In this document: positions 539 through 57,192 of the stretch, piece after piece | Layout of the letters: each line of letters opens with the position of its first letter | Numbering within the stretch: the stretch's first letter is position 1 | Source: Candidatus Zixiibacteriota bacterium | GTDB lineage: Bacteria > Zixibacteria > MSB-5A5 > GN15 > FEB-12 | Direction of reading: 5' to 3' | Length of the DNA stretch: 64,000 nt | NCBI GenBank assembly: GCA_024276275.1 | Contig: JAJRXM010000036.1 | Span: 1-64,000 of the forward strand | The notes under the pieces: model-generated | What the model was told of the DNA's origin: nothing | Seen by the model: the letters and a program-made list of their open reading frames with translations, nothing else | Database searches by the model: none | Program-made: the position numbers and the translations under genes

Positions 539-567
539 TTGACAAGTAAAACCTAAAGATGTACTAT
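539..567 (+). promoter_or_regulatory. Sigma-70-type promoter of the citrate synthase gene
   Basis: TTGACA (539-544) is followed after exactly 17 bases by TACTAT (562-567), a perfect -35 and a 4/6 -10. The predicted start of transcription is near 574, leaving a leader of about 90 bases before the ATG at 665. Seen in sequence; activity is inferred. Confidence 0.6.
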
Positions 568-577
568 ATAAACTCAA

Positions 578-593
578 TGTGAAACATTTCACA
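578..593. promoter_or_regulatory. CRP/FNR-family-type operator TGTGA-N6-TCACA
   Basis: A perfect CRP-type dyad (TGTGA AACATT TCACA) lies in a longer 8+4+8 palindrome spanning 576-595. Its centre (585.5) is about 11 bases after the predicted citrate synthase start site, a position where a bound regulator would repress. The same half-sites with the same spacing occur upstream of prfB-pta-pckA at 52083. No CRP/FNR gene lies in the window, so the regulator is unknown. Confidence 0.55.
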
Positions 594-664: not shown

Positions 665-1951
665 ATGGCTGCGGCAAAAGTCAAAACATTACATGACAAA
701 CTTGAAGCTATCATTCCGAAACTTCGTGAGGAAAAGAAAGCTATCTTGAGTAGTGACGGCGACAAAAAGATTTCTGATGTTACAATAGCACAGGCTTTTG
801 GAGGTATGCGCGGTGTCAAAGGAATGATCTGCGATACATCTGTTGTTGAACCTGATCACGGATTAATTATTCGAGGATACCCACTTCTCAAATTAAAAAA
901 ACGTCTCCCTGAAGAAATCTTTTGGTTACTCATTACCGGAACACTCCCAAACAAAAATGAATTAAAACTTTTCCAGAAACAACTGAGTGAATATAACAAA
1001 GTACCTGCCTATGTTTGGAAAGTTTTAAAAGCAATGCCAAAATCTTCACACCCTATGGCAATGCTCAACACTGCTATTTTAGTAATGCAAAATGAATCTG
1101 TATTCAGCAAAAAATACAAAGAAGGAATGCCGAAAACAGATTATTGGCATCCTGCCTTGGAAGATTCGATGCAGATACTCGGTACAATTCATACTGTTGC
1201 TGCTGGTATTTATCGCATGAAATATAAAAAAGGTCCGATACTTGAACCAAAGAAAAGTCTCGACTGGGGTGCTAACTACGCTTATATGCTCGGTATGAAA
1301 AATAAAGAAGAAGTGTATGAAATGATGCGCCTCTACCTTGTATTCCATTCTGACCACGAAGGCGGAAATGTTTCAGCAAATACCTGTCATACTGTCGGCT
1401 CGGCATTATCTGACCCATACTATTCTGTCTCGGCCGGATTAAACGGTTTAGCAGGTCCTTTACACGGACTGGCAAATCAGGAATGTCTCGGCTGGATTTT
1501 ACAAACAATGGAAAAATTCGGTGGTGCTCCAACTGAAAAACAGATTGAAGACTACGCCTGGGAAACATTAAACGCAGGCAAAGTTATCCCGGGATACGGT
1601 CATGCAGTTCTTCGAGTAACTGACCCTCGTTTTGTAGGTTTTAATCAGTTCGGTCGTAAATATTTGAAAGATGACCCTGTCTTTAAAACGGTAGACAGAG
1701 TCTTTAAAGTTGTACCGAAAGTTTTAGTTAAACATGGTAAAGCAAAATCACCATGGCCAAATGTTGATGCCGGTTCCGGTTCTTTATTATATCATTACGG
1801 TATAAAAGAGTTTGAATACTATACTGTTCTATTCTCAGTTTCACGTGCTATGGGAATGCTTGCCCAGTTAGTTTTAAACCGTGCCTTAGGTACTGCTCTT
1901 ACCCGTCCAAAATCTGTTTCAACTGAATGGATAAAAAAGCAAATCAAATAG
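665..1951 (+). CDS. gltA: Citrate synthase, mitochondrial (type I) kind
   Basis: Condenses acetyl-CoA and oxaloacetate to citrate at the entry of the TCA cycle. The 428-residue protein aligns by eye along its length with animal mitochondrial citrate synthase rather than with the allosteric E. coli GltA type; shared blocks include SDHEGGNVSA, LAGPLHGLANQE, VPGYGHAVLR and KSPWPNVDAGSG. The catalytic triad is present: His267 (LHGLANQ), His313 (GYGHAV) and Asp368 (NVDAGSG). The ATG is preceded by a clear AAAGGAG. It is a single gene with its own promoter, a CRP-type operator over the predicted start and a hairpin terminator behind it. Mitochondrial-type enzymes are known in some bacteria. Direction in the cell (forward or reversible cleavage) cannot be read from sequence. 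Confidence 0.95.
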   Translation: MAAAKVKTLHDKLEAIIPKLREEKKAILSSDGDKKISDVTIAQAFGGMRGVKGMICDTSVVEPDHGLIIRGYPLLKLKKRLPEEIFWLLITGTLPNKNELKLFQKQLSEYNKVPAYVWKVLKAMPKSSHPMAMLNTAILVMQNESVFSKKYKEGMPKTDYWHPALEDSMQILGTIHTVAAGIYRMKYKKGPILEPKKSLDWGANYAYMLGMKNKEEVYEMMRLYLVFHSDHEGGNVSANTCHTVGSALSDPYYSVSAGLNGLAGPLHGLANQECLGWILQTMEKFGGAPTEKQIEDYAWETLNAGKVIPGYGHAVLRVTDPRFVGFNQFGRKYLKDDPVFKTVDRVFKVVPKVLVKHGKAKSPWPNVDAGSGSLLYHYGIKEFEYYTVLFSVSRAMGMLAQLVLNRALGTALTRPKSVSTEWIKKQIK

Positions 1952-11300: not shown

Positions 11301-12181
11301 AGTGACCCCATATATTTTTGTAATCCGTCTTCCAAACTTATCGGATTTATTAAAAAAAGTTTCTGCATTTTTTCTGTATCGCAGGTAGACCCTGACTCCA
11401 TCATAAGTATTTGATCTCTCGTTATCGGAGCCGGTTTTATTATTTTTTCTAAAACCGATGATACAATCTTCATTAACATAACAGGTATAAAAAAGTTCAA
11501 TCTTTTTTTACCCATCTGTTTTTTAAGTATATGTAAAATTTGTAAATATTCAAGTTTTTCAGGGCCGCCGACTTCAATTATTTCATTATCTATTTTATCG
11601 ACATCAGTCATCATAGTTATAAGGTCATCAATATATAACGGCTGCATTTTATATTTGCCTGTGCCTATTACCGGAAGAAATAGGGAAAAACGTATCATTT
11701 TTTCTAGCATACTGATAAACCCGTCTCCATTACCAAACAATACCGACGGTCTAAATATAAGATACGGAATTTGTGAGGTAACTACAGCCTGCTCAGCGAT
11801 ATATTTAGACTGATGATATTTTGATAAAGCATTTTCGGCTGTCCCTAAAGCTGAAAGATAAATAATTTTTTTCACATTCTGATTTTTTGCTGCCGTTACG
11901 ATATTTTGAGTTCCTTCTGAAACTGTTTTTGAAAATGTTTTTGTATGAGTCTCAGCAATTATTCCAACAAGGTGATAGAGAATATCAATATCTTCGCAAA
12001 ACAAATCAAGTGAGCCTTGGTCATTAACAGAACCATCTATAGTTTCGACAGGTTTGCTCCACAAAGAGATATCCTTTTTACTGTGTGCTAAAACTTTTAC
12101 AGAATGATTTTTTTCAAGAAGTCTTTTAACAAGATGTGACCCGACAAAACCAAATGCACCTGTTACACCTATTTTCACCAA
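11288..12181 (-). CDS. NAD(P)-binding atypical SDR protein, NDUFA9-like
   Basis: 297 residues with an N-terminal Rossmann motif (IGVTGAFGFVGSHLVKRLL), the SDR strand YLSALGT and the active-site-like KYHQSKYIAEQAV (YxxxK-type position). This matches the extended/atypical SDR group that includes the complex I NDUFA9 subunit and sugar-nucleotide epimerase-like proteins. No sugar genes surround it; it sits between cobalamin adenosyltransferase and trxB with overlaps at both ends, indicating co-transcription. The C-terminal half (from ~210) is helical and less conserved. Function unknown; a quinone- or lipid-related dehydrogenase role is possible. Confidence 0.8.
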   Translation of the reverse strand: MVKIGVTGAFGFVGSHLVKRLLEKNHSVKVLAHSKKDISLWSKPVETIDGSVNDQGSLDLFCEDIDILYHLVGIIAETHTKTFSKTVSEGTQNIVTAAKNQNVKKIIYLSALGTAENALSKYHQSKYIAEQAVVTSQIPYLIFRPSVLFGNGDGFISMLEKMIRFSLFLPVIGTGKYKMQPLYIDDLITMMTDVDKIDNEIIEVGGPEKLEYLQILHILKKQMGKKRLNFFIPVMLMKIVSSVLEKIIKPAPITRDQILMMESGSTCDTEKMQKLFLINPISLEDGLQKYMGSLCQK

Positions 12182-12726
12182 TCAATACCCTTTTGTGCTA
12201 AAATACCTTGTTGGTACGGATGTTTAATTTCCTTCATTTCAGTTACTAAATCAGCCCGTTCAATCAAATACTCGGGAGCATTTCTACCTGTAATAACCAA
12301 ATGCTGTTTTTCAGAGCAGGCATCAAGGACAGATAATACATCCTCTTTACTGATTAATTCTAAGTCAGCAGCAATATTCAATTCATCCAAAATAATCAAT
12401 TCATATTTTTGAGACTTAATTTTCTCAATGGCAAATTCGACACCCTCTTTGGCCGCTTTTTGATGCTCTGAAAACTCTTTTTTATCATCAATAATTCCGA
12501 CAAATCCTTCTCCGACCAAGTGAAGTTCAACATTCGGTTCGAGCCTTTTAATTCCTTTTAATTCACCGTACTTCCAACTACCTTTTACAAATTGTATTAC
12601 CGAGATATTCCAATTGTATCCGACAGCCCGCACTACCATTCCTAATGACGCTGTTGTTTTACCTTTACCGTTACCGGTGTAAACTACCAGTAACCCTTTA
12701 TCAATACTTTTTTTATCTTCTGTCAT
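12175..12726 (-). CDS. cobO: Cob(I)alamin adenosyltransferase (CobA/BtuR/CobO type)
   Basis: Transfers the adenosyl group of ATP to cobalamin or corrinoids to give coenzyme B12. 183 residues with the family P-loop TGNGKGKTTASLGM near the N-terminus, FVKGSWKYGE, and the Walker-B-like LIILDELNIA followed by VITGRNAP, all CobA hallmarks. The ATG has GAGG 6 bases upstream. It is first in a unit with the SDR protein (7-base overlap) and trxB. No other B12 synthesis gene is in the window, so a salvage role is possible. It is divergent from the rrf2 regulator. Confidence 0.93.
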   Translation of the reverse strand: MTEDKKSIDKGLLVVYTGNGKGKTTASLGMVVRAVGYNWNISVIQFVKGSWKYGELKGIKRLEPNVELHLVGEGFVGIIDDKKEFSEHQKAAKEGVEFAIEKIKSQKYELIILDELNIAADLELISKEDVLSVLDACSEKQHLVITGRNAPEYLIERADLVTEMKEIKHPYQQGILAQKGIDW

Positions 12727-12854
12727 CGTAACCTCATTTTACTTTCAAACATATACAATATCCAACTTTTGAGGTAAAATGTCAATCTCCTTGCTGAAAA
12801 TAAGTTAGAGCGAATCGGCAACAATTATATTGTGAAATTTTTAACAAATTTAGT

Positions 12855-12961: not shown

Positions 12962-13387
12962 ATGCAGTTTACAAAAGCAGAAGAATACGGCATGCTTGGA
13001 GTTCTTTATTTATCAGAAAAAAAGTTAGGTTCTATCACACCTCTTTCTGAAATAGCTGAAGCTAAAGGAATTCCGGAGAAATTTTTAGCAAAGATATTTC
13101 AATCTTTATCTAGAGCAACTATTGTAAGATCGCATCGAGGAGTTCGAGGTGGTTTTTCTTTAGCAAAAGACCCTAAAGAAATTTCGGTAAAAGAAGTATT
13201 GGAATCTATTCACGGACCTTACCATCTGATTAAATGTACAAACAATACCGAGATATGTGATAAATCAAATTTCTGTTCACTTCGAGAATTACTGTCAATT
13301 GCTGAAAGAAAACTGGTTCAAATTTTTGAAGATCATACATTAGCAGATTTGGTTAAATGGCAAAAAAACAAGATGATTGCTATTTAG
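12962..13387 (+). CDS. Rrf2 family regulator, IscR-like with three cysteines
   Basis: 141 residues. An N-terminal winged helix-turn-helix (FTKAEEYGMLGVLYLSE.. IAEAKGIPEKFLAKIFQSL) and the wing SHRGVRGGFSLAK identify Rrf2. Cys92, Cys99 and Cys105 correspond to the cluster-ligating cysteines of IscR (92, 98, 104), so an iron-sulfur sensor is likely; the first spacing is one residue longer. A promoter and an inverted repeat are visible upstream. Downstream on the same strand are dcd and pyruvate:ferredoxin oxidoreductase, an Fe-S enzyme, but a 109-base gap makes co-transcription uncertain. No isc/suf genes are nearby. Confidence 0.9.
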   Translation: MQFTKAEEYGMLGVLYLSEKKLGSITPLSEIAEAKGIPEKFLAKIFQSLSRATIVRSHRGVRGGFSLAKDPKEISVKEVLESIHGPYHLIKCTNNTEICDKSNFCSLRELLSIAERKLVQIFEDHTLADLVKWQKNKMIAI

Positions 13388-50529: not shown

Positions 50530-51381
50530 TTATTCTTCGGTGCCTGTTATCGTATTAGGAACAAAAGAGGCGGCAATTTCAAAATCAAAACCGATATCCT
50601 GAGGACGGTGCGCATCTGAACCTAAAAACTGTACATGTACTCCGGCCTTTTTAGCTCGGTTGATTATTTTTATATTAGGATAATACTGGTTCACACCATG
50701 CCTATACCCTGCGGTGTTAATTTCAAGAGTTGTTTCTGTTGCGATGAGAGATTTGAACAGTTCTTCTAAATATGGTTCATACGCATTATCTAAATTTTCT
50801 TTATAATAATTCTTTGCATATTTTATATAATACTCCAAATGAGCAATTGTATCAAAAAGTCCGGAATCAGATGCTTTGATTGCAGTTTGAAAATACTTTT
50901 CGACCATCTGCTCAAGCGAATATCGGTCAAAACACTTTTGGTATGTGCTTCTACAGCAGAAACAGATATTTTCTATCTCATGGATACCGCAGAGAAAATA
51001 GTCAAAGGCAAAAGCATCTTTAACTTTTTGGGCAGTTTCCTGACAATTATCAAACCATCCGAATTCAAGACCTAACTTAACGGACAATCCTCGGAGATTA
51101 TATTTTTCAGCAGCTTTTCGAACATCCTCGACATACGGTTTTAGATTTTCAATCGATGTAGTTTTATGCTCACCTTTTATAGAAATTAAATTCCCCTGAC
51201 AATCACCGACCGGGTTACAATCATAGTGAGTAGTAAAACAAATTTCAGCAAGATTTCTTTTGAGGGCTGCCTCGCAATATTCATCAATAGTCCCGACCGC
51301 ATCAATCGAGTAATCACAATGCACATGATAATCCATCGCACCCTCAAAATGGATAGGTTCTAATTCTTGGAAATCAGACAT
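50530..51381 (-). CDS. PHP-family histidinol-phosphatase-like protein
   Basis: 283 residues. PHP metal motifs: MDYHVHCDYSIDA near the N-terminus, CFTTHYD, KLGLEFGWF, CGIHEIE, and LGSDAHRP at the C-terminus. This is the HisK/HisJ-type histidinol phosphatase fold with a trinuclear metal site. No other his genes are nearby, so substrate is unproved; other phosphoesterase roles are possible. It overlaps the MBL hydrolase gene by 8 bases. Confidence 0.88.
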   Translation of the reverse strand: MSDFQELEPIHFEGAMDYHVHCDYSIDAVGTIDEYCEAALKRNLAEICFTTHYDCNPVGDCQGNLISIKGEHKTTSIENLKPYVEDVRKAAEKYNLRGLSVKLGLEFGWFDNCQETAQKVKDAFAFDYFLCGIHEIENICFCCRSTYQKCFDRYSLEQMVEKYFQTAIKASDSGLFDTIAHLEYYIKYAKNYYKENLDNAYEPYLEELFKSLIATETTLEINTAGYRHGVNQYYPNIKIINRAKKAGVHVQFLGSDAHRPQDIGFDFEIAASFVPNTITGTEE

Positions 51382-52015
51382 AATTCCCTCCTTGTAAAAA
51401 CGGATTATTTACTCTTTCGCCGCCTATGGTTGTTGTCGGTCCATGACCAGGCACACACTTTATTAAATCTGGTAAAGGTAATAATTTTTTCTGAATTGAT
51501 TCTATCAGTTGTTCATGTGAACATCCGGGGAAATCAGTTCTTCCGATTGAACCGTAAAAAAGAGTATCACCACAAAATAATAAATTTTCCTTTTCATCTA
51601 AAAAACAAAGCCCGCCGGGTGAATGTCCGGGAGTGTGTAAAACTCTGAAATTTATAGTACCGATAGAAATAATCTCTTCATCTGAAAGCCAAAAATCGGC
51701 AGGAGGTACTGTAATTGCCTCACCGATAAAAACAGACATATTAGCAGTAGCATCAGCAAGCAGCTCTTTTTCATTTTCACCGGCATACAGCGGAATTTGA
51801 AATTCATTGAGAACTTCTTGAACAGCCCCGATATGATCGGAATGTCCGTGAGTCAACAAAACTGCTTTTGGAGTGAAACCGAGATTCATGACTTCATCGA
51901 TAATCATTTTAGCATCAGCACCGGGGTCAATAATTACCCCTTCTTTGCTGTTTTCATCAAAATAAAGGGAACAATTTACTTCGTAAGCCCCTACAACAAG
52001 GATATGATTTTTCAT
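51374..52015 (-). CDS. Metallo-beta-lactamase-fold hydrolase, glyoxalase II type
   Basis: 213 residues. Zinc motif LLTHGHSDHIGAV (HxHxDH), HTPGHSPGGLCF, and FCGDTLFYGSIGRTDFPG, as in short glyoxalase II-like hydrolases that act on thioesters. The C-terminal VPGHGPTTTIGGERVNNPFL carries the last His ligand. First gene of a run with PHP, AAG and possibly M50 genes. The substrate is not known. Confidence 0.9.
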   Translation of the reverse strand: MKNHILVVGAYEVNCSLYFDENSKEGVIIDPGADAKMIIDEVMNLGFTPKAVLLTHGHSDHIGAVQEVLNEFQIPLYAGENEKELLADATANMSVFIGEAITVPPADFWLSDEEIISIGTINFRVLHTPGHSPGGLCFLDEKENLLFCGDTLFYGSIGRTDFPGCSHEQLIESIQKKLLPLPDLIKCVPGHGPTTTIGGERVNNPFLQGGNYV

Positions 52016-52082
52016 AGAGTCAATGATACGGACTTTCTTTAAATTGTCAATCTTAAGATAGATAAAAAATCACCTTGATTTT

Positions 52083-52098
52083 TGTGAATAAAATCACA
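52083..52098. promoter_or_regulatory. CRP/FNR-family-type operator TGTGA-N6-TCACA
   Basis: Perfect dyad (TGTGA ATAAAA TCACA) centred at 52090.5. The predicted prfB promoter start is about 63 bases downstream, close to the -61.5 class I activation position known for E. coli CRP. Matches the site at citrate synthase (578-593) in both half-sites and spacing. Confidence 0.6.
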
Positions 52099-52118: not shown

Positions 52119-52147
52119 TTGACCTACGATGATTAGATATATATATT
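52119..52147 (+). promoter_or_regulatory. Promoter of the prfB-pta-aminotransferase-pckA unit
   Basis: TTGACC (52119-52124), 17-base spacer, TATATT (52142-52147), about 25 bases before the Shine-Dalgarno of prfB. Confidence 0.65.
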
Positions 52148-52175: not shown

Positions 52176-53295
52176 ATGACAATTACTGAACTAAAAAATA
52201 AACTGCCGGAATATAAAGAGAAACTCGATAAACTAGTGAGGTATCTTTGACTTACCCGGTCGGATTGAAGATATAGCAAAACTTGAAAAAATTTCAACTG
52301 AAGAGTCGTTTTGGAATAACACCCAAAAAGCTCAGGGAATTCTTAAAGAAATTTCCATTCACAAAAAATGGGTCGACACCCACCAAAAGCTGAATTCCGA
52401 CCTTCACACAATTGAAGAATTTGTTGAACTGACTGATGGTGCCGATGACTCTGCTGACACTATTGAACTGATAGAATCTTTCAGCAAACTTGAAAAAGAA
52501 ATCGATGATTATGAATTTAAGTCTCTTCTCTCCGGTCCGGATGACTTTCGTGATGCTCTTATCACTTTTCACCCCGGAGCAGGCGGAACAGAATCGCAAG
52601 ATTGGGCTGATATGTTGTTTCGCATGTACAACCGATGGGTCGAACGTAAAGAGTTCAGTTCCGAATTGATAGATTATCAACCGGGTGATGAAGCAGGTCT
52701 GAAATCTGCTGCATTAAAAGTTAAAGGTGATTTTGCTTACGGATTTCTCAAAGCAGAATCAGGGGTACATCGTTTGGTACGTATCTCCCCATTTGATTCA
52801 AATGCAAAACGACATACCTCGTTTGCATCAATTCATATTTTCCCTGTCGTAGAAGATAGTATTGAAATCGAAATTAAAGATGAAGAAATTCGTATAGACA
52901 CTTTTAGAGCATCAGGTGCCGGTGGACAGCATGTTAATAAAACTGATTCAGCAATTCGGATAACTCATATTCCAACTAACATAGTTGTATCCTGTCAATC
53001 GCAACGGTCACAGCATAAAAATAAAGATGCCGCCATGTCTGTGTTAAAATCTCGACTGTATCAGTTACAAAAAGAAGAAGAAGCCAAAAAGATGGATAAA
53101 TTTGAGCAGTCCAAAAAGAAAATAGAATGGGGTTCTCAAATTCGGTCATATGTTTTTCACCCGTATAATATGGTCAAAGACCATAGAACTTCAGCACAGA
53201 CTTCAAATACACAAGCAGTCATGGATGGCGATATAGATCAATTTATTGAGGCATTTTTGAGTGATCCGGAATTACACGATCACACAGTCATGTAA
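52176..53295 (+). CDS. prfB: Peptide chain release factor 2 with programmed +1 frameshift
   Basis: RF2 releases chains at UGA and UAA. The gene starts at ATG 52176 (AGGAAATG context) and reaches TGA at codon 25; the reading then continues +1 as DLPGRIEDIAKLE. The ORF track shows only the part from 52612. The tripeptide anticodon SPF (RISPFDSNAKR) identifies RF2 and the GGQ loop is intact (GAGGQHVNKTDSA). The leader has the classic slip site CTT TGA C (52245-52251) with a GAGG SD-like sequence just before it (GAGGTATCTTTGAC), as in E. coli. The frameshift gives autoregulation: low RF2 favours slipping. Confidence 0.97.
52237..52251 (+). promoter_or_regulatory. prfB programmed +1 frameshift site
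   Basis: TGAGG-TAT-CTT-TGA-C: an internal Shine-Dalgarno-like GAGG three bases before CTT, the Leu slip codon, an in-frame TGA, then C. All known determinants of RF2 frameshifting are present. Confidence 0.92.
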
Positions 53296-53317: not shown

Positions 53318-54310
53318 ATGAATATATTAACTCAGATTAAAGATAAAGCGAAAAATCTAAAACGCAGGGTTGTCCTCCCGGAAGGAACTGAACCCCGTAT
53401 GGTTCAAGCTGCCAAAAAAATTATTTTTGAAGGAATAGCAAATGTTACTCTTATCGGTAACCGAAAAGAGATTGAACCACTCGCCAAAGATTGCAATCTG
53501 AACCTTGATAAAGTCGAAATAATTAATCCTACACACTCTCCTGATTACAATACTTTTGTAGAAGACTTCATGGAACTTCGAAAACATAAAAACATTTCAG
53601 CAGATGAAGCAAAAACAACTATAGCTAAACCTCTCTTTTTTGGTGCAATGCTGGTCAGACATGATAAGGCAGATGCCTCTGTTGCAGGTTCTGTTAATAC
53701 TACCGGTAATGTTATAAGAGCTGCTATTTCTGTTTTAGGCTTAAAAGAAGGTATCAATACTGTATCCAGTTGTTTTATGATGACTATTCCAAAATACAGG
53801 GATGAACTGAATAAAGTTTTTCTTTATGCCGACGGTGCCGTTATGCCAAATCCGACTGCAGAACAATTAGTTTCTATCGCAGCTTCAACTGCTGACACTA
53901 TGAAAAATTTACTTGGCATAGAACCCAAAATTGCCTTTTTGTCATTTTCAACTAAAGGTTCTGCCTCACATCCGGATGTTGACAAAGTTACAAAAGCAGT
54001 CGAAATGTTTAAAAGAGAATATCCCGATATTATTGCAGACGGAGAATTTCAACTCGATGCTGCCATTGTACCTGAAATTGCTAAATCTAAAGCACTGGAT
54101 TCTGTACTTGCCGGAGATGCCAATATCTTGATATTTCCTGATTTAGATGCCGGCAATATCGGATATAAACTAACCCAAAGACTTGCCAATGCAACCGCTA
54201 CGGGACCGATTATTCAAGGTCTCTCAAAACCTGCCAACGATTTATCTCGCGGATGTTCGGTAAACGATATAATAGACGTAACAGCTATTGCTGTTTTAAT
54301 GAAAGGATAG
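53318..54310 (+). CDS. pta: Phosphate acetyltransferase (or butyryltransferase)
   Basis: 330 residues, the single-domain PTA_PTB form. Interconverts acetyl-CoA and acetyl phosphate. Blocks include KRRVVLPEGTEPRMVQAA, MLVRHDKADASVAGSVNTT, FADGAVxPNPT-like YADGAVMPNPTAEQLVSIA, AFLSFSTKGSA and FPDLDAGNIGYKL, all family marks. It follows prfB by 22 bases and precedes the aminotransferase by 3, so the three are likely co-transcribed. No acetate kinase is in the window. Confidence 0.95.
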   Translation: MNILTQIKDKAKNLKRRVVLPEGTEPRMVQAAKKIIFEGIANVTLIGNRKEIEPLAKDCNLNLDKVEIINPTHSPDYNTFVEDFMELRKHKNISADEAKTTIAKPLFFGAMLVRHDKADASVAGSVNTTGNVIRAAISVLGLKEGINTVSSCFMMTIPKYRDELNKVFLYADGAVMPNPTAEQLVSIAASTADTMKNLLGIEPKIAFLSFSTKGSASHPDVDKVTKAVEMFKREYPDIIADGEFQLDAAIVPEIAKSKALDSVLAGDANILIFPDLDAGNIGYKLTQRLANATATGPIIQGLSKPANDLSRGCSVNDIIDVTAIAVLMKG

Positions 54311-54313
54311 CAG

Positions 54314-55534
54314 GTGAGTGTCAGTCATTTAGCCCGTAATATAAAAGACTCCCCTACTCTCGTCTTTAACGCTAAAGCTCGGCAGTTAAAAGAGCAAGGT
54401 AAACCGGTCATACATCTAGGTTCCGGAGAACCAAAAACAAAAACTCCCCAAGACGCTATAAAAAGTTGTACGGAAACTTTGCAAACAGCAGAGATACATT
54501 ACACTTCGACTGAGGGAATACCTTCTCTTCTTGAAGCGATTACAAGCTATACAGAAGAACATTATGATAAATTAGTCAATTCCGAAAATATTTTAGTATC
54601 TTCAGGAGGAGCTAAACATGCAATTTTTAACCTGATGATGGCAATCATTGACCCCAAAGATGAAGTAATTATCCTTGCTCCTTACTGGGTCAGCTATACC
54701 GAAATAGTTAAAATGGTTTACGGTATACCGGTTATAGTAACTCCTGCTAACAATCAGTTTGAACCTCGATTTGAAGAAATAGTAGCATCTGTTACCTCCT
54801 CCACCAAAGCAATTATGGTCAACTCTCCGAATAATCCTTCAGGTTGCATTTATTCAGAACAGTTAATCGGAGAACTGGTAGAGTATTGTGAAAAAAACGA
54901 TATCTATTTGGTAATGGATGATATTTATCATCAGCTCTATTTTGATAATACTAAACCTGTTTCTGTCTATAAATACTCACAAAAAGATATTGACAAATCT
55001 ACTATAGTTGTTATCAATGGTATTTCCAAAGCATATGCTATGACCGGGTTTCGAATCGGTTGGGCTATTGCGAATAGAGAAGTAACTCAGGCGATGAGAA
55101 ATGTCTCCGCTCAAAACACGTCATGCCCGTCGGTTGTATTACAATCTGCCGCTGTAGGTGCATTAAACGGTGATCAAAGCGGTGTTGAAAAATTACGACT
55201 CACCCTTGAGAAAAACAAAAACATTATGATGAAAGAACTTAATAATTTTCATGATATAAAAATAACAGAACCGCACGGTACTTTTTACTGTCTACCGGAT
55301 TTTTCTGCTTACAACAAATCCTCATCGGAACTTGCAAAGTTTCTGCTCGAAAAAGCATTAGTTGTAACGGTTCCCGGTGGTGAATTCGGATTTGAGGGAC
55401 ATCTCAGACTCAGTTATTGTGGTTCGGAAACTGATATAAAAGAAGGTATTGCCCGAATAAAGTGGGCACTTGATATAAAATCAAATGATGAAATTATTAT
55501 TGGAAATAACAAAATGAAAAGGAACTGGAAATGA
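54314..55534 (+). CDS. PLP-dependent aminotransferase class I, aspartate aminotransferase-like
   Basis: 406 residues. PLP lysine in INGISKAYAMTGFRIGW, the Asp contacting the pyridine N in VMDDIYHQLYF, NSPNNPSG and the C-terminal RLSYC near an Arg for the carboxylate. The start is GTG (gtgagtgtcagt), 3 bases after pta; a GCAGGTG-like SD precedes. It matches the Asp/aromatic aminotransferase I gamma group that could supply oxaloacetate or pyruvate, fitting the PEPCK and citrate synthase context. Exact substrate unknown. It overlaps pckA by 4 bases. Confidence 0.92.
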   Translation: MSVSHLARNIKDSPTLVFNAKARQLKEQGKPVIHLGSGEPKTKTPQDAIKSCTETLQTAEIHYTSTEGIPSLLEAITSYTEEHYDKLVNSENILVSSGGAKHAIFNLMMAIIDPKDEVIILAPYWVSYTEIVKMVYGIPVIVTPANNQFEPRFEEIVASVTSSTKAIMVNSPNNPSGCIYSEQLIGELVEYCEKNDIYLVMDDIYHQLYFDNTKPVSVYKYSQKDIDKSTIVVINGISKAYAMTGFRIGWAIANREVTQAMRNVSAQNTSCPSVVLQSAAVGALNGDQSGVEKLRLTLEKNKNIMMKELNNFHDIKITEPHGTFYCLPDFSAYNKSSSELAKFLLEKALVVTVPGGEFGFEGHLRLSYCGSETDIKEGIARIKWALDIKSNDEIIIGNNKMKRNWK

Positions 55535-57192
55535 CTCATGACATTTTAAACGTTAATTCACCTGCATTAGGTCATGCTGATGCTCTTAAAAGTGAAAATG
55601 GGTTGGACATTCTTGGATTGAAAGACCTGAATCGTGTCTATTGGAATCTAACACCTGAAGCATTATACGAAGAAGCAATTTTCCGTAGTGAAGGTAAAAT
55701 ATCTCACATGGGAGCCTTTGTCGTAGATACCGGTGCTCATACTGCTCGTTCGGCAAATGATAAGTTCATTGTCAAAGCATCCCCTTCCGAAGACCATATC
55801 GACTGGGGTGGCGGAAACCGTCCTATGCCTGTTGAAAAATTTAATGCTGTCTTTGATCGGATGCGTGAATTTTTAAAAGGGAAAGACCTTTTTGTACAAG
55901 ACTGTTATGCGGGTGCTGATCCAAAATATCGGATGCCTGTGCGTATTATTACCGAATATGCCTGGCATTCTCAATTCGCCCGTAACATGTTTATTCAACC
56001 TGAGACAAATGAAGAATTGACGAATTTTGCTCCGGGGTTTACTGTTATGTCGATTCCTTCTTTCAAAGGTATCCCGGAAGTTGACGGAATAAACTCTGAA
56101 ACATTTATCCTCTTAAACTTTGAGGAAAAACTTTGTATAATCGGTAACACCGGATATGCCGGAGAAATCAAAAAATCTGTTTTCACGGTTTTAAATTATC
56201 TTTTACCTTTACAAGATGTATTAAGTATGCATTGCTCAGCCAATGTAGGGAACAACGATGACTCTGCATTGTTCTTCGGTTTATCAGGTACCGGTAAAAC
56301 TACATTATCAGCAGACCCTACTCGTCAGTTAATCGGCGATGATGAACATGGCTGGTCTGACAAAGGTGTTTTCAATTTTGAAGGTGGCTGTTATGCCAAA
56401 GTTATAAATTTATCTGCTGAAGCTGAACCGGAAATCTATGCCGTTACTTCCATGTTCGGCACTATTTTGGAAAATGTCGTTTATGATGTAAATACTCGTA
56501 AAATTGATTTAGATGATGACTCCATGACTGAAAATACTCGCTCGGCATATCCTATTGAATATATTTCAAACTCATTACCTGAGAAAATGGCAGGTCATCC
56601 GAAAAATGTAATCATGCTCACTTGCGATGCTTCCGGTGTCATGCCTCCAATTGCGAGACTTACACCAGAACAAGCGATGTATCATTTTATTTCCGGTTAC
56701 ACATCTAAAGTAGGTGGAACTGAAGTCGGATTGGGTAAAGAACCACAAAGTACTTTTTCAGCTTGTTTTGGAGCTCCTTTTATGGTGCATCATCCGTACA
56801 AATATGCTGAAATGCTCAAAGATAGAATTCTTAAGCATAACGCCACTTGTTGGATTGTAAACACCGGCTGGTCAGGCGGTCCTTTCGGTATAGGCAAACG
56901 GATGTCTATCAAGTATACCAGAGCGTTATTAAATGCTGCTTTGGAAGGTAAACTTGCTGATGTCAAATACTACAAAGATCCGGTCTTTGGATTTGAAGTT
57001 CCTACACATTGTGAAGGTGTTCCTGATGAAGTATTGCGTCCTTCTGATACCTGGGATGACAAAAAAGCATTTGAAGCAAAATATCTAAACCTTGCTACAC
57101 TCTTTGTTGAAAATTTCAAGAAATTTGCTGATGGATGCCCACAGGAATTACTTGATGCTGCTCCAAATAAAGATGCTAAGTTAAATTTATAA
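55531..57192 (+). CDS. pckA: Phosphoenolpyruvate carboxykinase (ATP)
   Basis: 553 residues. Interconverts oxaloacetate and PEP with ATP. Contains the PEPCK-ATP kinase loop FGLSGTGKTTLSADPTR, GDDEHGWSDKGVFNFEGGCYAK and NTGWSGGPFGIGKRMSIKYTR (all conserved). The four bases ATGA overlap the aminotransferase stop, so it is translationally coupled. An intrinsic terminator follows. It is gluconeogenic by direction in most bacteria, but in some fermenters it works toward oxaloacetate. Confidence 0.96.
   Translation: MTHDILNVNSPALGHADALKSENGLDILGLKDLNRVYWNLTPEALYEEAIFRSEGKISHMGAFVVDTGAHTARSANDKFIVKASPSEDHIDWGGGNRPMPVEKFNAVFDRMREFLKGKDLFVQDCYAGADPKYRMPVRIITEYAWHSQFARNMFIQPETNEELTNFAPGFTVMSIPSFKGIPEVDGINSETFILLNFEEKLCIIGNTGYAGEIKKSVFTVLNYLLPLQDVLSMHCSANVGNNDDSALFFGLSGTGKTTLSADPTRQLIGDDEHGWSDKGVFNFEGGCYAKVINLSAEAEPEIYAVTSMFGTILENVVYDVNTRKIDLDDDSMTENTRSAYPIEYISNSLPEKMAGHPKNVIMLTCDASGVMPPIARLTPEQAMYHFISGYTSKVGGTEVGLGKEPQSTFSACFGAPFMVHHPYKYAEMLKDRILKHNATCWIVNTGWSGGPFGIGKRMSIKYTRALLNAALEGKLADVKYYKDPVFGFEVPTHCEGVPDEVLRPSDTWDDKKAFEAKYLNLATLFVENFKKFADGCPQELLDAAPNKDAKLNL

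Follow-up and report, generated by a model that had tools for sequence, protein, structure and literature searches.

What reads a perfect CRP-like palindrome that lies some 63 bp before the predicted transcription start of prfB in a Zixibacteria genome, and to what effect? CRP is the best-known family of TGTGA readers, and the first-pass annotation of this DNA had a CRP-type protein activate the prfB-pta-aminotransferase-pckA unit from this site. The window analysed here is a 64-kb stretch (64,000 nucleotides) at the start of one contig; its source genome measures 3.39 Mb and is 95% complete, and the closest named relatives of its pta mark the organism as a Candidatus Zixiibacteriota bacterium. 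Comparison with relatives points to a different reader, the NADH/NAD+-sensing regulator Rex, and to two kinds of site.

The prfB locus and its promoter

The unit and the intergenic region in front of it comprise the following features.

51374 to 52015, minus strand: divergent metallo-beta-lactamase-fold hydrolase, with a predicted −35 TTGACA (reverse of 52045-52050)
52083 to 52098, plus strand: candidate Rex-type variant site TGTGAATAAAATCACA, centre at −63.5, upstream of the prfB −35; position kept in 13 genomes
52119 to 52124, plus strand: prfB −35 TTGACC, conserved across the family
52142 to 52147, plus strand: prfB −10 TATATT, after a 17-bp spacer; predicted start at about 52154
52176 to 53295, plus strand: prfB, release factor 2, with the programmed +1 frameshift AGGTATCTTTGAC (52239-52251); frameshift signature conserved
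53318 to 54310, plus strand: pta, phosphate acetyltransferase (TIGR00651 above cut-off)
54314 to 55534, plus strand: class I/II aminotransferase
55531 to 57192, plus strand: pckA, ATP-dependent PEP carboxykinase (TIGR00224 above cut-off)

The genes are tightly packed, with gaps of 22 bases between prfB and pta and 3 bases between pta and the aminotransferase gene, which overlaps pckA by 4 bases. Thus pta and pckA do stand behind a release factor gene, as had been reported, but the arrangement is not the unusual one that it was taken for: 29 of the 30 whole-genome pta loci checked have prfB upstream, which makes the linkage a lineage trait. Every zixibacterial prfB locus scored retains the CTTTGAC of the frameshift site. 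In many relatives gltA and pta share a contig at a distance of ~5-6 kb; in this genome they are ~52 kb apart.

The promoter reported earlier, TTGACC-N17-TATATT with a site about 63 bp upstream, is present. A strong TTGAC-N17/18-TATATT promoter precedes prfB in nearly all family members; nothing else in the region is as well conserved, and the DNA around it has diverged. The site keeps its distance to this promoter. Measured without fixing the distance between the two, its centre falls at −60.5 to −63.5 in 12 genomes, and in a thirteenth (G022) it sits a helical turn closer, at −51.5; the promoter of one locus (G007), TTGCAC-N17-TATATT, was identified by eye. The motif common to these loci is TTGTGAA-N4-(A/G)T(C/A)AC(A/T). 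Several family members lack the site at prfB, including one of the same genus (G001).

Is the palindrome an accident? A matrix built from rex and gltA sites only (see below) places position 52082 second in the window, behind gltA, and about 3 sites per genome would be expected to score as high as the prfB site by chance. A single site is therefore not exceptional by score, and the case for it rests on conservation: a functionless chance palindrome would have to keep its distance to the promoter in 13 genomes despite the diverged DNA in between, a footprint that makes this explanation extremely improbable. Judged by that conservation, the prfB site is a real regulatory site. An UP element was considered and rejected; such elements usually occupy −40 to −60, and the prfB site lies upstream of that region.

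CRP or Rex as reader

The window contains a second perfect match to TGTGA-N6-TCACA, TGTGAAACATTTCACA, in front of the citrate synthase gene.

539 to 567, plus strand: gltA promoter TTGACA-N17-TACTAT
578 to 593, plus strand: predicted Rex operator of gltA, perfect, TGTGAAACATTTCACA, centre at +11.5
665 to 1951, plus strand: gltA, citrate synthase

TGTGAATAAAATCACA and TGTGAAACATTTCACA are the only perfect matches in the window, against 0.06 expected, and none of 100 shuffles held two or more. The earlier statements that TGTGAATAAAATCACA matches perfectly and that two such sites are unlikely by chance are thus borne out. The genome-wide count that had been proposed as a check agrees: pattern searches (not matrix scans) found 10 perfect sites in the whole genome against 4 for the reversed control, and 8 of the 10 are intergenic and near gene starts, where ~0.3 would be expected from the coding density of the window (Poisson P ~1e-9). 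The two coding matches (L005:1501 and L006:1501) are haem CXXCH codons in multihaem cytochrome genes, a source of false positives for CRP scans.

Such sites suit a CRP-type protein that, with cAMP, would activate prfB by class I contact: the match is perfect and the geometry is that of class I. Most intergenic sites, however, carry A at position 6 and T at position 11; CRP needs neither base and Rex needs both. Across 61 genomes the Rex pattern TGTGAA-N4-TTCACA has 275 matches against 4 in the control; CRP-like sites that lack both Rex positions show much weaker enrichment (94 against 28). The proteins tell the same way. The genome has two PF00027 matches, one a full CRP/FNR regulator (L011) and the other a fragment in a hydrogenase-type cluster; in that cluster (L012) the cNMP-binding fragment is split across two frames, possibly by a frameshift. 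The search for a CRP/FNR-family protein thus did turn one up, but the CRP recognition arginine is missing from it. Its helix, GTIPETLSR, reads PETLSR against RETVGR in CRP, with Pro at the Arg180 position and Ser at the CRP Gly, and its best solved relative is DNR. With L011 as the only full regulator, no CRP with the recognition residues Arg180, Glu181 and Arg185 was found in the genome, and among relatives the Arg180 position is taken by Pro, Ser or Leu in every helix of the same form (a few further HTH matches that do not fit the helix form were left out of this comparison). Loss of Arg180 accompanies a motif switch from TGTGA to TTGAC in the co-variation described by Rodionov and colleagues, so that proteins of this type read TTGAC (PMC545781, PMC1274295). 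Finally, one relative (G048) carries rex and the variant site upstream of hppA described below, with no CRP-type HTH match. Recognition helix, site statistics and this genome together led us to reject CRP as the reader, and class I activation by CRP-cAMP is very improbable. The original proposal survives in its geometry and fails in its protein.

Two further candidates fared no better. HcpR was rejected because Arg180, which the published CRP-like HcpR retains, is missing from the regulator here. FNR-type reading by L011 was also dropped: counts of its pattern, TTGAY-N4-RTCAA, are elevated in most genomes, also where such a regulator is missing, and so do not discriminate.

Rex, by contrast with CRP, is at hand. 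The Rex protein of this genome (L002) has both Pfam domains, exceeds the NCBIfam cut-off for Rex by a wide margin and is nearly identical in its DNA-binding region to the solved Rex structure 3ikv. Nearly every genome of the group has one copy of rex (57 of 61). One 97%-complete genome (G051) in which no rex was found has neither the Rex motif nor the prfB site. The published Rex consensus is TTGTGAA-N4-TTCACAA (PMC2883068, PMC5317091). In the relatives perfect Rex sites precede 30 of 31 rex genes, as an autoregulatory site would, and 20 of 29 gltA genes, with linkers that vary freely; in this genome the rex gene has one of the eight perfect intergenic sites 22 bp upstream of it. The other predicted targets in this genome are nuoA, buk, gltA and the genes for an aldehyde dehydrogenase and a multihaem cytochrome, all of them redox or energy functions, together with a DUF1015 gene. 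Sites with one mismatch lie near a thiolase gene, a NuoE-type gene and glutamate dehydrogenase, these three having been read by eye. In the window, the third-best matrix score belongs to a Rex-like sequence, TTGTGAAATTTTTAACAA, at 12830-12847, between the divergent ORFs 12175-12726 (minus strand) and 12962-13387 (plus strand).

Repressor-type and proposed activator-type sites

Where the sites lie separates them into two classes. The gltA site had been described as having the same structure as the prfB site and overlapping the promoter start, but it lies downstream of the predicted start. Among the 23 gltA loci whose site has no more than one mismatch, 22 have it at +7.5 to +16.5 relative to the start of the top-ranked promoter, and the remaining locus gave no promoter. 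Most rex-gene sites fall at +0.5 to +8.5 on the same measure, several rex loci being without a clear promoter, and the motif there, TTGTGAA-N4-TTCACAT, lies over or just past the predicted start. By motif and placement, the site at 578-593 is a Rex operator in repressor position, and the two sites of the window therefore do not share one arrangement: gltA and most rex loci have theirs between +0.5 and +16.5, and prfB at −63.5.

The bases differ as well. The gltA site has 12 of the 12 core bases of TGTGAA-N4-TTCACA; the prfB site has 11, with a systematic purine at position 11. The same variant recurs upstream of hppA, a membrane pyrophosphatase gene, in seven genomes that belong to a different family within the order (L264-L269, L271), as TTGTGAANNNNATCACAT, centred at about −60.5; four of the seven have it as TTGTGAAGAAAATCACAT, and one copy has C at position 6. 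A similar variant precedes an AtpI/AtpZ-like F0F1-ATPase gene in one genome (G037, L260:1500-1887). The hppA and ATPase sites were found by searching for a site and TTGAC within a fixed range of distances, so that only the sharp peak within that range and the recurrence of the genes count as evidence. Class I geometry, claimed originally for a single site, thus extends to 13 prfB loci and, at the same distance, to hppA. Position 11 is A or G in ~21 of 22 sites of the prfB/hppA class and almost always T in rex and gltA sites; a test on these counts, tallied by hand, gave P 2e-14, which is a guide only, the rex/gltA set having been chosen by a T-containing motif and the genomes being related.

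Could a protein other than Rex read the sites of the prfB/hppA class? The core mismatch and the systematic purine there would allow it: another regulator would read TTGTGAA-N4-RTMAC at −61 and activate prfB and hppA, leaving Rex to repressor-type sites, and both position 11 and placement do differ systematically between the classes. Yet 11 of 12 core positions are common to the two motifs, the outer T...T is mostly shared by the prfB/hppA class and rex-gene sites, and CRP was not found; we regard this explanation as unlikely. Counting against Rex, one genome (G057) has an hppA site in an 83%-complete assembly in which no rex was found. Rex is the likely reader of the prfB site, to judge from the shared motif; the prfB-pta-aminotransferase-pckA unit is probably preceded by a site of the Rex family in the position of a class I activator.

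Rex might instead repress here, at a second, weaker promoter, TTGATT-N18-TATATT, which overlaps the site in this genome and puts it at −20.5, or act on the divergent hydrolase gene. However, inspection by eye showed the overlapping promoter in just one further genome (G003), the distance from the site to the divergent −35 is more variable than that to the prfB −35 (also by eye), and the site is kept in a genome (G008) in which no divergent hydrolase was found. Either alternative is improbable. That the site serves the hydrolase was rejected on a further ground: 15 of 16 relatives have a homologue of this gene before prfB, whether or not they have the site, and the gene is divergent in genomes without the site as well.

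From position alone, then, we infer that Rex binding at prfB would activate. NAD+-bound Rex would occupy the prfB site at low NADH and, from −61, assist RNA polymerase in the manner of a class I activator, so that transcription of prfB-pta-aminotransferase-pckA would rise; hppA would be activated likewise in the related family. On a rise in NADH Rex would leave, gltA, rex, nuo and buk would be derepressed, and the prfB unit would lose its boost. More tentatively, the Rex of Zixibacteria may be a dual regulator that represses from start-overlapping sites and activates prfB-pta-pckA, hppA and perhaps an ATP synthase operon from −61 variants, the variant base marking the activator class.

Activation by Rex has been suggested, not demonstrated, in the literature (PMC8457756), and the prfB and hppA sites offer a specific, conserved and testable case for it. 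If it holds, an uncultured phylum would have its translation termination and acetate/PEP metabolism coupled to the NADH/NAD+ ratio. For annotation the sites counsel caution: in CRP-less genomes, TGTGA-N6-TCACA can be a Rex site.

Comparison with known systems

The closest known system is the Rex operator TTGTGAA-N4-TTCACAA of S. aureus, Streptomyces, S. agalactiae and others, which shares with the sites described here its half-site and spacing, an autoregulated rex, and redox and energy targets. By that standard the gltA site is ordinary. The prfB site differs from it in having A, not T, at position 11 and in lying upstream of the −35, where those operators lie at the transcription start. In Caldithrix abyssi the candidate Rex site cTGTGAATCAATTCACAt, 38 bp before rex, resembles the Rex sites here; activator-position sites, unlike the prfB site, are not described in the available text of that study (PMC5317091).

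Desulfovibrio HcpR sites, TTGTGA-N6-TCACAA, are also CRP-like sites in anaerobes, some of them placed for activation, but HcpR keeps Arg180 (PMC545781) and the regulator here lacks it. Class I CRP promoters of E. coli such as lac share with the prfB site TGTGA-N6-TCACA, a centre near −61.5 and tolerance of one helical turn (−51.5 once, in phase). They differ in their reader, no Arg180-type CRP having been found in this genome, and in their freedom at positions 6 and 11, which the intergenic sites here do not have.
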